Both the position numbers and the translations under genes were made by a program. A DNA stretch of 64,000 bases from contig NZ_MJAT01000022.1 in NCBI RefSeq assembly GCF_001742305.1, forward strand, positions 1 to 64,000, written 5' to 3'. Positions within the stretch are counted from its first letter, which is position 1, and each line of letters begins with the position of its first letter. Origin of the DNA: Desulfuribacillus stibiiarsenatis. Its GTDB lineage: Bacteria; Bacillota; Bacilli; Desulfuribacillales; Desulfuribacillaceae. Shown here piece by piece: positions 20,271 to 63,356 of this stretch. The notes below the pieces were generated by a model, which did no database searches, was not told where the DNA came from, and saw only the letters and a program-made list of their open reading frames with translations.

Positions 20271-20370
20271 TAGTATTAAATCTCCTTTGTATGTAGTTTA
20301 GATTACACATTAATCTATAAAATAATCATAACGAATCATTTATAGTATGTCCAATTTTTTTGCTTTTAAA

Positions 20371-20403
20371 AAAAGGCATATCCGAATATCGGATAATGCC
20401 TTC
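20371..20403 (-). terminator. Terminator after the cold-shock gene
   Basis: On the minus strand GGCAT-ta-TCCGA pairs with TCGGA-t-ATGCC around TAT, followed by seven T residues. Confidence 0.85.
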
Positions 20404-20429
20404 TTGTAGTCAATGTAGTTATGTTATAA

Positions 20430-20627
20430 CTATACGCGAACTACGTTAGCTGCTTGTGGTCCACGGTTTCCGTCAACGATATCGAATTGTACTGATTGAC
20501 CTTCTTCTAAAGTCTTGAATCCGTCTCCTTGGATAGCTGAGAAGTGAACGAATACGTCGTCACCGTTCTCGCGCTCGATGAATCCGAAACCTTTTTCTGC
20601 GTTAAACCATTTTACTTTGCCTGTCAT
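20430..20627 (-). CDS. Cold-shock protein (CspA/CspB family)
   Basis: The 65-residue protein is a complete cold-shock OB fold with RNP1 KGFGFIE and RNP2 DVFVHFSAI. It binds single-stranded RNA/DNA and prevents RNA structure formation. The start at 20627 ([16 protein letters not shown]) follows GGGAGG and gives the family's standard length; the longer frame to 20678 is untranslated leader. A leader of unknown length, common for csp genes, precedes it. Confidence 0.96.
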
Positions 20628-20905
20628 TTGATTGGCCTCCCAAAAAATTAAAGTGTTTAAAAAGCATAATGTAACCATGTTTCCTTGCTAAACCATCTTT
20701 AGATTTTTAGAGGCCGCAAAACCAAAACGTTATCTATACTTTTCACTTTAACAGAATATCACAGTTGTAAAATAAAAGCAAATTAATATAAAGAAATATT
20801 AACAGCGAGGAAAATTGCGTTCTATTTATTGGAAAAACAGTTCAATATTTATGTTGATTCAACAGCAAGCCCATTGTATGATGAAACTAGACAATTTCAA
20901 CGGAA

Positions 20906-35532: not shown

Positions 35533-35882
35533 AAAGTGTAATAATTGCCGCGATACTTTACTTTATGCTTTTGAAAAACAAATTAAACGATGTAAGCCCT
35601 ACCTCTCAAACATTCTTACGGCTCCAAAGCCGATCCAGGTGAATAATTATCAAATTGAACATGGTGGTAAAATACATTATTACGTGAGTACTTGTTTGTG
35701 CACACCGAACAAATATAGCACTAATGATAAATTATACCATAAACTTATAATAAGTCAAATCAGGTAAGAATTTAGGTCAATTTCTTAAAGTTTAGTTAAG
35801 TGAAATTAAGTAAAGTTGTAAACACAAGTTTAATATAATGATAATATTAGTAAAAAGAAACAATATACTTTGATATAATCGA
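35533..35882. other. Intergenic region before the DUF975 gene
   Basis: AT-rich spacer. One plus-strand frame (35523-35762) stays open for about 80 codons and reads LKCNNCRDTLLYAF..., but it has no start codon or ribosome site and no recognised family. No RNA motif was identified. Confidence 0.4.
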
Positions 35883-58464: not shown

Positions 58465-58587
58465 TCAAAGCAAAGTAAAACATCAGCAAAGTAAAGTACA
58501 AAAACAAAGTAAAGAATCAATTGAAATTGTTCATGTGAATACAAATAAAAATAAAATCTTCTTAATTGCAAAAATGGAGATGATGAC
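58465..58587. other. Spacer with CAAAGTAAA-type direct repeats
   Basis: CAAAGTAAA-like words recur four times between about 58467 and 58524. No terminator for the RND operon was recognised, so read-through into msrA is possible. Confidence 0.45.
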
Positions 58588-59205
58588 ATGTCGTATAAAG
58601 TCGCAACCTTTGGCCTCGGATGATTCTGGGGACCTGATGCCCGGTTCGGGGTCATGGAAGGAATCGTACGTACTCGTGTTGGTTATGCAGGAGGGACAGC
58701 GGACAATCCAACCTACCACAATTTAGCGGACCATACGGAATGCTTGCAGGTGGAGTATGATGAGTCCATGATTTCTTATGAACGAATTCTAGAATGGTTT
58801 TGGAAACTGCATAATTCCACAAGACGTGTATGGTCTAGACAGTATATGCCAGTGTTGTTCTATCATGATGAACAACAAAAAGCATTAGCAATAGCCAGTA
58901 AAGAACTGCAACAAAGCCTTCTTGGGAAGGTGATTACACCGATAGAGCAGTATGAGAAATTCTTTCTAGCGGAATTCTATCATCAGAAATATTATTTGCA
59001 GCAAGTGCGAGAAGTAGCGCAAGAGATACAGAAACATGAAGGAACTCCACAACAATTTGTCGACTCAACGGTGGCAGCTCGTTTAAATGGTTATATTGCC
59101 GGCTATGGCAATTTGCCGCAACTATTGCTGGAATTACCTGATTGGAAGCTTTCTGATGCTGCCAAGAAATTGCTAATTGTAAGAGTAAGTAGTTACCAAT
59201 CTTAA
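58588..59205 (+). CDS. msrA: Selenoprotein methionine sulfoxide reductase A (in-frame UGA = selenocysteine)
   Basis: Read through the TGA at 58621-58623, the frame gives 205 residues. The MsrA catalytic motif GCFWG appears as GUFWG (Sec 12), followed by the family segments GVMEGIVRTRVGYAGGT and YHNLADHTE. ATG 58588 has GGAG 8 bp upstream. A bacterial SECIS-like hairpin follows the TGA. MsrA reduces methionine-S-sulfoxide in proteins; Sec raises catalytic rate in known selenoprotein MsrAs. Cys 52 is the only cysteine, so the usual C-terminal resolving cysteines are absent. A caller ignoring Sec would begin at ATG 58654 and lose the active site. Confidence 0.88.
58621..58653 (+). promoter_or_regulatory. 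Bacterial SECIS-like element in msrA
   Basis: After the UGA, GAC (58631-58633) pairs with GTC (58651-58653), and CCC (58640-58642) pairs with GGG (58648-58650), exposing loop GGTTC with its two guanines 20-21 nt after the UGA. That matches the placement of the GGUCU loop in E. coli fdhF, bound by SelB. The 5' side bulge CTGATG is unpaired. Confidence 0.75.
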
Positions 59206-59739: not shown

Positions 59740-60789
59740 ATGAAAAAAAGTTTAATTATAGCTTTCGTAGTATTAGTTGCAGCATCAATTTTTGTTGGAT
59801 ATCAAACGCAGGTAGGCGATCAAGCGATTCAGGAGAGTAATAATCCAGAACAAGCTGCTGTACTTGCATTAAGCCCAATTGAAGTTGCAGAAAGAATTTC
59901 AAGTGAATGGAAAGGCTCTAACAAGTTTTTCGCGCAAATTAACGCAGCAAATTTGGCGAACAGTCCAGGTGCGCGTGAGGGTTGTACACATTGTCATAAC
60001 GGTATGGTGTTTGCAGGTGGAGTACATACAAACGCCCCGATTGGCGATCATATGACGGGTATCAATTGTCAAGCATGTCACACTGGCACTGGTAATGAAT
60101 TGATGAAAACTGGGCAAATCAATCCAGCTATGAGACATTTCACAGGCACATACATAAAAAGTGATATTACTGGTGGACGCGCAGGAAAAGGCGCATTATG
60201 TATCACATGCCACAATGGTAGACGTGATCCGCAGGCATCATTAGCAGCATTTACGGCTGGAACAGGAAACATGCAATATCCTCACTATGGTGCAGCATCG
60301 CTAGTGTTTGGGCAAGGCGGTATGCATTTGCCTGAAGCTACTTACCGCTCATCGGCAGCGCACTCGAACATCCAAGATAGTTGCGTTGGGTGTCATATGG
60401 TAGAGACTCAAGAAGGATATTCACAACATACATTCATACTTGATGAAGCAGATGCTAATAAAGCATGTGGAAACTGTCATGTGGGTGCACAGAATTTCAA
60501 TATCAACGGTTCACAAACAGAAGTCTATAACGGTTTGAAAAGAGTCTATGATGCATTATTAGAAGCGACAGGAGCCGCTAGAATCGAAACATCAGGTCAA
60601 GGTGGATTCTTGTTCTACGATCAAGCTGGGGCAACGTTCCAACATAGGCCAACTCCCGAAGTATACTCATTACTATATAACTGGTACCTTGTAAAAAGCG
60701 ATGGCAGCTTAGGAGTCCATAACCCCGCGTATGCACGTGCGTTATTGGGTGAGTCCTATCGCGCTGTAACAGGTAAAGGGCTTTGGTAG
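59740..60789 (+). CDS. Pentaheme c-type cytochrome (cassette 1, gene A)
   Basis: The 349-residue protein has a signal peptide or N-terminal membrane anchor (about 5-22) and five CxxCH haem sites: CTHCH 82-86, CQACH 110-114, CITCH 154-158, CVGCH 215-219 and CGNCH 243-247. Intervening His-containing segments (TGTYIKSD, PHYG, AAHSN, GYSQHTF) look like distal ligands, as in the NrfA/multihaem scaffold, but there is no CxxCK catalytic haem. An electron-transfer role in anaerobic respiration is likely. AAGAAGGGAG precedes the ATG. Closely similar to the protein at 62310-63356. Confidence 0.9.
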   Translation: MKKSLIIAFVVLVAASIFVGYQTQVGDQAIQESNNPEQAAVLALSPIEVAERISSEWKGSNKFFAQINAANLANSPGAREGCTHCHNGMVFAGGVHTNAPIGDHMTGINCQACHTGTGNELMKTGQINPAMRHFTGTYIKSDITGGRAGKGALCITCHNGRRDPQASLAAFTAGTGNMQYPHYGAASLVFGQGGMHLPEATYRSSAAHSNIQDSCVGCHMVETQEGYSQHTFILDEADANKACGNCHVGAQNFNINGSQTEVYNGLKRVYDALLEATGAARIETSGQGGFLFYDQAGATFQHRPTPEVYSLLYNWYLVKSDGSLGVHNPAYARALLGESYRAVTGKGLW

Positions 60790-60816
60790 TCATATTCAAT
60801 AGGAAGGAGATATAAC

Positions 60817-61842
60817 ATGAGAAAAAGTCTAATTTTAGTACTAGTTTTGCTGGTAACTATGTTCATATCAATCGGTTGTGAGTTGGAAGAGATTCCAGAA
60901 ACTCCAGCACCGCAGACGCCTACACAACCACAAATACCAGCGTTAACATTAAATAACTTAGATTTAACAGAAAGAATTTCGAATGAATGGAAAGGGACAG
61001 GAAAAGCCTTTGCGATTCCAGATCCAGCGGGACGGGGAATTGGCTGCGCGCAATGTCATGACGGTTACGGATTTTCAATGTTCAATACGTATAATCCTAA
61101 CGTAACTGGTGCACCAGCCTATGCTCCAAAACACCCTACAGGAATTGACTGTCAAGCCTGTCATACTGGGCGTGGCAAAGAGTTAATGGATTCTGGTTCC
61201 GTACAGCTACCGTTTAATGCACAACCGTTACAAGCTGGAAAATCAGCAAATTGTATGGCGTGTCACAATGGTAATAGAAACCCAGAAACGTTAGCACAGC
61301 AATTCCAAGCAGGTACACTAGCTCGTTTAACATATCCGCACTATGGAATGCAAGCAGCTGTAACAACGGGACAAGGCGGCATGGCGATTCCAGGAGTTAC
61401 CCTGCCATCCACAGTAGCTCACTCTTCAACTCCATGCATCACATGTCATATGCCGTACACGAATGAAGGATATAAGTCGCATACATTTAAAGCAGATGTG
61501 GCAAATATCAACCAAACCTGTGGAACATGTCATGCGGGAATTACAGATTTCAATTACAATGGATTCCAAACTGAAATTACTGATTTGTTAACAAAAGTTA
61601 AAAAGGCAGCGATAGAAAAAGCAGGAGCATCTGATTTAACGTATGCAGGTGGTGCGTTTACTTTCCATGACGCACAGGGTGCTGAAATTGATATTAAACA
61701 GATTCCGTTTGAGGCGTACGTTGGTGCCTATAACTGGAGGCTAATTGCTTTAGATGGTAGTGGTGGTATTCACAATCCTCAATACGCAAGATCAATTTTG
61801 AGGGAGACGTATAGATTTATCACAGGACAACAAATTCAATAG
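60817..61842 (+). CDS. Pentaheme c-type cytochrome lipoprotein (cassette 1, gene B)
   Basis: The 341-residue protein has a lipoprotein signal (ISIGC, lipobox Cys 21), a Pro/Thr-rich linker and five CxxCH sites (CAQCH, CQACH, CMACH, CITCH, CGTCH). It shares the scaffold of gene A (TERISNEWKGTGKAF, PHYG, GQGGM, YKSHTF, HNPQYARSILRETYR), so A and B are paralogues. Lipid anchoring would hold it on the outer face of the membrane as partner of gene A. It lies 27 bp after gene A with AAGGAG; a terminator follows. Confidence 0.9.
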   Translation: MRKSLILVLVLLVTMFISIGCELEEIPETPAPQTPTQPQIPALTLNNLDLTERISNEWKGTGKAFAIPDPAGRGIGCAQCHDGYGFSMFNTYNPNVTGAPAYAPKHPTGIDCQACHTGRGKELMDSGSVQLPFNAQPLQAGKSANCMACHNGNRNPETLAQQFQAGTLARLTYPHYGMQAAVTTGQGGMAIPGVTLPSTVAHSSTPCITCHMPYTNEGYKSHTFKADVANINQTCGTCHAGITDFNYNGFQTEITDLLTKVKKAAIEKAGASDLTYAGGAFTFHDAQGAEIDIKQIPFEAYVGAYNWRLIALDGSGGIHNPQYARSILRETYRFITGQQIQ

Positions 61843-61857
61843 TTTTTCCATAATGTA

Positions 61858-61892
61858 AAAGAAACCCTTGTGAATGCAAGGGTTCTTATTTT
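61858..61892 (+). terminator. Terminator after cytochrome cassette 1
   Basis: AAGAAACCCTTG pairs with CAAGGGTT-c-TT around TGAATG, followed by a T-rich stretch. Confidence 0.85.
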
Positions 61893-62007
61893 GCCTAATT
61901 ATCACTTAGAACGAATGCAATTTTACATTAAAACTTCACATTCGAGTATCAAAAATGAAAGAGATTTAGCGTCACTCATGCATAAAAATTGCACAATTTT
62001 TACATAA

Positions 62008-62073
62008 ATTATCCATAAAAAACACAAACTTTCTCCACAACTTCTCCATGATTTCTCCACAACTTATCCGCGT
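62008..62073 (+). promoter_or_regulatory. Helically phased 11-bp repeat array upstream of cytochrome cassette 2
   Basis: Nine-base words TTATCCATA (62009), TTCTCCACA (62031), TTCTCCATG (62042), TTCTCCACA (62053) and TTATCCGCG (62064) share orientation and are spaced 22, 11, 11 and 11 bp. They are near the DnaA box TTATCCACA, but 11-bp periodic direct repeats are also the hallmark of PhoB/OmpR-type binding sites. The binding protein is unknown. Confidence 0.6.
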
Positions 62074-62166
62074 TAACTCCTTGTGTATCAAGTGTTGCCG
62101 CCAATTGAACTATTATTTTAAGTATGAAAAATAGAGCCAAAGAAAATTAAAAATATTTATATATTT

Positions 62167-62252
62167 TTGACACAAAACTGTAACAAATGTATTGAAAAGA
62201 AGTGTGATGCATGTCATAATAGGGTATGTAATTGTGAAATTGATTCACAATT
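62167..62252 (+). promoter_or_regulatory. Promoters and Rex/CRP-like palindrome before cytochrome cassette 2
   Basis: Two overlapping promoter candidates are TTGACA (62167-62172)/TATTGA (62190-62195) and TTGAAA (62192-62197)/CATAAT (62215-62220), each spaced 17 bp. AATTGTGAA-N5-TTCACAATT (62230-62252) is a perfect 9-bp inverted repeat at the likely transcription start. It resembles the Rex operator TTGTGAA-N4-TTCACAA and the CRP/FNR site TGTGA-N6-TCACA, with one extra central base. Confidence 0.5.
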
Positions 62253-62309
62253 GAAAGTATAGAAAGTTGTCTATACAAGAAAATTCATCTTTAGAAGGGA
62301 GAAAGAGAA

Positions 62310-63356
62310 ATGAAAAAGAGCTTATTTTTAGCTTTTGCAGTTCTAGTTGCTGTTTCTGTGTTTGTAGGCGTACAATACCAAACAGTTGCAGAACCTGCGA
62401 TTGAAACAAGTGCTTTTGCTGAAGCGGCTGTTCTTGGAGTAAGCAACCTGGAAATGGTTGAGAAGATTTCAGCTGAGTGGAAGACCTCTGATAAGGCTTT
62501 TGCTCAAGTGAGTACCCCAATCACTAACAGCCCAGGGCAAAGAGAAGGATGTACTCATTGTCATAACGGTATGGTATTTGCAAGTGGTGTACATACCAAT
62601 GGTGTAGTAGGTGACCACATGACGGGATTAAACTGTCAAGCTTGCCACACTGGTACTGGTGAAGAGTTAATGAAAGCTGGTAAATTGAACGTATCTATGA
62701 GACATTTTACAGGAACATATATTAAGAGTGATTTTACTGAAGGTAAAGCTGGGAAAGGTGCATTATGTATTACTTGCCACAGTGGAAGACGTGATCCAGC
62801 TACGAATCTTAAAGGTTATATCGCTGGTACAAATGGAATGGCTTATTCACACTATGGTCAAGGTCCAATTATCTTTGGTCAAGGAGCAATGCCAATTGAA
62901 GGTGTAACTTTCAAGACTTCTTCTGCTCATGCTAGTATCCAAGATTCTTGCGTAGCGTGCCATATGTCTGATACAAAAGACGGCTATGCATCTCACTCAT
63001 TCAAAATGAACAAGGATAACGTCGCTACAGCTTGCGGTACTTGCCATACTGGAGCGAAAGACTTCGATATTAACGGTGTCCAAACAGATATGTACAAGAA
63101 ATTAAATATTGTGTATGACGAAATCAAGAAATTCTCAGGCGCTGCAGAAGTTAGAACTTCGGGGAGCACAGGATTTACGTTCCACAAAGCTGATGGAACA
63201 GCAATAGCTTACAAGCCAACACCTGCACAATACACATTAATGTACAACTGGTACCTTGTAAAAGGTGACAAGAGTAAGGGCGTTCATAACCCACAATACT
63301 TAAAATCTGTGTTAAGCGAGTCGTATAAAGCTGTAACCGGCAAAGGACTTTGGTAG
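62310..63356 (+). CDS. Pentaheme c-type cytochrome (cassette 2, gene A)
   Basis: The 348-residue protein parallels gene A of cassette 1 along its whole length, with the same five CxxCH sites (CTHCH, CQACH, CITCH, CVACH, CGTCH) and the same candidate ligand segments (TGTYIKSD, SHYG, SAHAS, SHSF). It has an N-terminal signal or anchor (KKSLFLAFAVLVAVSVFVG). AAGGGAG precedes the ATG. It starts the second cassette, with its own promoter region including an 11-bp repeat array. It was probably generated by duplication of the A-B pair. Confidence 0.9.
   Translation: MKKSLFLAFAVLVAVSVFVGVQYQTVAEPAIETSAFAEAAVLGVSNLEMVEKISAEWKTSDKAFAQVSTPITNSPGQREGCTHCHNGMVFASGVHTNGVVGDHMTGLNCQACHTGTGEELMKAGKLNVSMRHFTGTYIKSDFTEGKAGKGALCITCHSGRRDPATNLKGYIAGTNGMAYSHYGQGPIIFGQGAMPIEGVTFKTSSAHASIQDSCVACHMSDTKDGYASHSFKMNKDNVATACGTCHTGAKDFDINGVQTDMYKKLNIVYDEIKKFSGAAEVRTSGSTGFTFHKADGTAIAYKPTPAQYTLMYNWYLVKGDKSKGVHNPQYLKSVLSESYKAVTGKGLW

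Follow-up and report, generated by a model that had tools for sequence, protein, structure and literature searches.

Position 58588 of the window, by which we mean the whole stretch of 64,000 nucleotides analysed here, is the start of a coding sequence whose twelfth codon is UGA, ordinarily a stop. This raises the question of whether the codon is read as selenocysteine (Sec), giving a Sec-containing peptide-methionine (S)-S-oxide reductase (MsrA), as an earlier note on this DNA had proposed, and of how the oxidised enzyme would then be returned to its active form. When TGA is translated as Sec, positions 58588-59205 of the forward strand form a single open frame, with codon 12 as its sole in-frame TGA. 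We consider it very probable (about 96%) that this gene encodes a real Sec-containing MsrA, for which we propose regeneration by an external thiol. Such an enzyme, which serves in protein repair, is a new member of an already characterised family with known structures, and in that sense it is largely ordinary. The features of the locus are the following:

58588-59205 (+), msrA, Sec-containing peptide-methionine (S)-S-oxide reductase, 205 residues long when the UGA is decoded as Sec (Pfam, TIGR00401, phmmer)
58576-58579 (+), ribosome-binding site GGAG, 8 nt 5' of the ATG at 58588 (sequence)
58621-58623 (+), in-frame UGA for Sec12, which is the catalytic residue in the motif GUFWG (translation, alignment with homologues)
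58633-58657 (+), SECIS-like hairpin CCUGAUGCCCGGUUCGGGGUCAUGG, -8.8 kcal/mol (folding, comparison of Sec and Cys genes, criteria of PMC13188914)
58735-58743 (+), codons of Thr50, the catalytic Glu51 and the non-conserved Cys52 (alignment, residue list of the C. oremlandii enzyme)
59062-59157 (+), residues 159-190, the MsrA_helical domain that characterises the C. oremlandii type (PF20939)

The read-through product matches the Pfam families PMSR (PF01625; 127.5 bits for a cut-off of 23.7, E 7e-37) and MsrA_helical (PF20939; 24.8 bits for a cut-off of 23.7, E 1.8e-5), and it also scores above the cut-off of TIGR00401. The homology continues without any change of frame on both sides of the UGA, which sits exactly at the catalytic residue of a G-UGA-FWG motif, of the GCFWG type that marks PMSR members. 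On these points, and on the good ribosome site in front of the ATG, the earlier note had read the locus correctly. The closest solved structures are those of the MsrA of Clostridium (Alkaliphilus) oremlandii OhILAs, hereafter CoMsrA (4u66, 7c13 and 4lwj-4lwm; phmmer E about 1e-53 over residues 4-187). All the active-site residues listed for CoMsrA (PMC4333827) are kept, namely F13, W14, Y43, E51, Q85, Y86, H132 and Y135. Both proteins have a catalytic Sec in a GUFWG motif and a C-terminal helical domain (PMC4479559; PMC4333827), which are marks of the C. oremlandii type, and both appear to lack a conserved resolving cysteine. Unlike CoMsrA, the present protein has a shorter N-terminus (Sec at position 12 versus 16) and one extra cysteine, Cys52. 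It also resembles the Cys-type 1-Cys MsrAs of haloarchaea, Planococcus and its relatives, and Halanaerobium in length, architecture and sequence (about 38-53% identity); these Cys-type enzymes with a helical domain differ in that their catalytic codon is TGC or TGT, mostly without a matching hairpin after it.

Selenocysteine machinery and other UGA-containing genes were searched family by family in the genome. ARAGORN detected a tRNA-Sec with anticodon TCA, which scores 61 bits against the Rfam model RF01852 (cut-off 47), and profile searches recovered selA (585.6 bits), selB (411 bits, cut-off 242) and two copies of selD (410.9 and 323 bits), each carrying a UGA. The complete set used by bacteria to decode Sec (selA, selB, selD and tRNA-Sec(UCA)) is thus present in the same genome, as the earlier note had supposed; selB and selC, whose absence it had named as an objection to its own reading, are both there. 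The tRNA-Sec lies near selA and the 410.9-bit selD, and selB is located elsewhere. The second selD (348 aa, with a GSGUAC motif) stands apart from the selA-selD-tRNA-Sec cluster. Further UGA-containing genes, which the earlier note had suggested looking for, were also found: besides the two selD genes, they comprise the gene for the alpha subunit of formate dehydrogenase (Fdh) and two genes for thioredoxin-like proteins. In the 64,000-nt window itself, the other in-frame TGA stretches yielded no Sec candidate by Pfam.

C34:224586-225515 (+) and C34:206824-207738 (-), the two selD genes (loci L131 and L170), both carrying an in-frame UGA in the part that encodes the active site
L178:1489-1980 (-) and L180:399-962 (-), a paralogous pair of thioredoxin-like proteins, probably lipoproteins, with an active-site UGA (UPSC, UPTC)

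The alignment with Cys homologues that had been proposed as a check places the UGA opposite the catalytic cysteine codon. In this tblastn alignment, the codon at the position of Sec12 is TGA in 20 rows (19 homologues and the gene itself) and TGC or TGT in 81 members of the helical-domain family. The closest genome within the taxonomic family and a second genome of the class both have TGA at this place. Sec/Cys exchange would be expected to give such a pattern, which a local error cannot explain. The 19 UGA homologues belong to many different families within the phylum. Among 398 genomes sampled from the phylum, 20 have a strong MsrA match (E at most 1e-34), and in 17 of these the match contains one TGA; for Sec-containing MsrAs of this type, the earlier note's mention of a few anaerobes was therefore too narrow. 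Sec and Cys forms are mixed in a tree of the 101 rows, with six changes between them versus a mean of 18.5 after shuffling. At least two of the six changes are forced by well-supported branches; most deep forks are weak, and for this reason no direction of change is concluded. One Sec row (L164) groups weakly with a haloarchaeal Cys clade (82/95).

These data bear directly on two ways of dispensing with Sec. An ordinary Cys MsrA could have acquired the UGA by nonsense mutation or through a sequencing error, leaving a pseudogene or a misassembly. Gene calling with table 11 would indeed give a shortened ORF of 183 residues from 58654, and the genome has no MsrA match other than msrA at 58588-59205 (MsrB is encoded by a separate gene without a stop). 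Yet this codon is also UGA in 19 homologues from so many families, which strongly disfavours the explanation; it must also contend with a complete Sec machinery, with 193 codons that remain open and conserved past the UGA and with a hairpin kept mainly in Sec genes; we regard it as highly improbable. Translation could alternatively begin at the downstream ATG 58654, the start of the longest table-11 ORF at the locus, and produce a functional protein devoid of the GUFWG motif. Such a product would have neither the catalytic residue nor the first strand of the fold, whereas the segment 58588-58653 is conserved as protein in all homologues and has its own ribosome site, so that this start is hardly credible. 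With Sec retained at codon 12, the msrA record needs a Sec annotation, since a standard gene caller would either shorten the gene or miss it.

Decoding of the UGA would depend on the hairpin that follows it. Its core stem pairs 58640-58643 with 58647-58650, for a total of 10 pairs with bulges, and its loop is GUU (58644-58646), or GGUUC if the closing pair is counted, with the loop G at 58644. The GG that the earlier note had placed in the loop, 20 nt past the UGA, is indeed found at 58643-58644. The published limits for bacterial SECIS elements (bSECIS) require an apical loop of 3-9 nt with a G in the first two positions, a stem of 4-16 bp, a distance of 16-37 nt from the UGA and an MFE of at most -7.5, and the model places a closing pair N1-N2 around G-[G/U] (PMC13188914). 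The msrA hairpin falls within these limits (loop GUU at 20 nt, 10 pairs, -8.8 kcal/mol) and, as in bacterial SECIS elements, its loop opens with G-[G/U] some 20 nt past the UGA. The limits are loose and separate poorly, being also satisfied in 16 of the 20 Sec genes, 22 of 33 Cys genes and 14 of 150 random stretches. Presumably the hairpin is comparable to the SECIS of E. coli fdhF, from which it differs in stem sequence. Its folding energy is not above chance relative to shuffled sequences (z about -0.3) and was dropped as evidence. RNAalifold prefers a competing helix to the SECIS-like hairpin; the helix pairing columns 6-10 with 20-24 was set aside, as it shows no compensatory change and starts too near the UGA.

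Since the energy of the hairpin alone is unremarkable, we set the Sec genes against the Cys genes of this MsrA family, which are under equal protein constraint and need no SECIS. Only this comparison at fixed positions, and not a scan with the bSECIS limits, separates the two groups. Among close Sec rows and non-haloarchaeal Cys rows, the loop G is present in 19/19 and 9/33 (p 1.4e-7) and the three-pair core in 16/19 and 8/33 (p 3.8e-5), respectively. The full core stem with the closing pair and the loop G occurs in 15 of the 20 Sec genes versus 2 of those 33 Cys genes (Fisher p 2.6e-7). All these p-values are optimistic because they ignore relatedness. Columns 23 and 27 form the closing pair, which is A-U in 10 Sec genes, G-C in 6 and G-U in 1, a covariation reached in 1 of 500 shuffles, and in the Cys genes the two columns show no association (p 0.69). 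The base in column 23 is the second of a Gln/Arg codon, and that in column 27 is the third of a Phe codon, where the exchange is silent; a silent base thus tracks an amino-acid change. As judged from the aligned genes, the putative SECIS hairpin is conserved beyond protein coding and specifically in Sec genes, and it is supported by both this comparison and the covariation, most Cys homologues lacking it. The paired set of 20 Sec and 81 Cys genes makes it possible to separate a bacterial SECIS hairpin from protein-coding constraint.

The chemistry, regeneration and cellular location that we propose follow, by analogy, those of the characterised relative. SelB is predicted to bind the hairpin at 58633-58657 and to bring Sec-tRNA(UCA) to the UGA at 58621-58623. 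The enzyme, in which no signal peptide was seen, would be a cytosolic MsrA of the 1-Cys type with Sec as its catalytic residue. The Sec selenolate would attack the sulfoxide of methionine-S-sulfoxide, methionine would be released and Sec would become a selenenic acid, which an external thiol would then reduce to the selenol, either directly or via a diselenide between two MsrA molecules. An external thiol is proposed because the protein has no conserved resolving cysteine. CoMsrA contains Sec and no Cys, its Sec form being about 20 times more active than the Cys form; it is reduced by glutaredoxin, not by thioredoxin, and can dimerise through its catalytic residue (PMC4479559). An external thiol or a dimer as the route of regeneration is therefore in keeping with the family.

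The earlier note had left recycling to either Cys52 or an external thiol. Cys52 is, as it had stated, the only other cysteine of the 205-residue protein and could act as an internal resolving residue through a Sec12-Cys52 selenenylsulfide, all the more so as no canonical glutaredoxin was found and as a distant Sec homologue (L168), the sole other Sec row with a cysteine there, also has one 40 residues after Sec. However, in almost every homologue, whether of the Sec or the Cys form, position 52 is V, T, A or I, and this lack of conservation suggests that Cys52 is probably not a resolving residue. It also adjoins Glu51, whose counterpart in CoMsrA, Glu55, lies on a central beta-strand (PMC4333827), so that the side chain of Cys52 probably faces away from the catalytic centre. 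A resolving role for Cys52 is thus possible but not favoured, and we consider a Sec12-Cys52 bond in place of an external thiol unlikely. Of the two proposals, the external thiol is the one that agrees with the 1-Cys mechanism of CoMsrA (PMC4479559), and an external reductant should be expected for this MsrA.

The apparent lack of glutaredoxin bears on the nature of this reductant. Unlike the situation of CoMsrA, which glutaredoxin reduces, no canonical glutaredoxin was found by one search for the PF00462 family in the draft genome (99.86% completeness); the sole match is weak and corresponds to a protein of 138 residues that reads as Spx/ArsC-like. The genome of the nearest relative encodes a clear glutaredoxin (PF00462). 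Thioredoxin candidates are one ordinary cytosolic thioredoxin (CGPC), whose gene may be located at C36:161928-162218, and the two UGA-containing thioredoxin-like proteins (UPSC, UPTC). The latter were discarded as reductants of MsrA, as they begin with a lipoprotein-type signal and look to be outside the cytosol. We tentatively suggest, with rather more doubt than belief, that this MsrA may work without glutaredoxin, via the ordinary thioredoxin or a Sec12-Cys52 bond opened by thioredoxin. If true, the Sec12-Cys52 route would represent a 1-Cys enzyme turned into a 2-Cys enzyme by a cysteine gained beside the catalytic Glu.

At the locus, no sign was found of a link between msrA and either the transporter gene upstream or the cytochrome genes downstream. 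The gene 5' of msrA encodes a transporter of the RND type, named from its sequence alone, and three multihaem c-type cytochromes (349, 341 and 348 aa) are encoded in tandem directly 3' of msrA, at 59740-63356 (+) of the window. Two Rfam matches were also detected in the window: a BsrC sRNA at 35577-35662 (+), with 65.5 bits, and a cspA thermoregulator at 20370-20709 (-), barely over its cut-off (79.4 versus 78).
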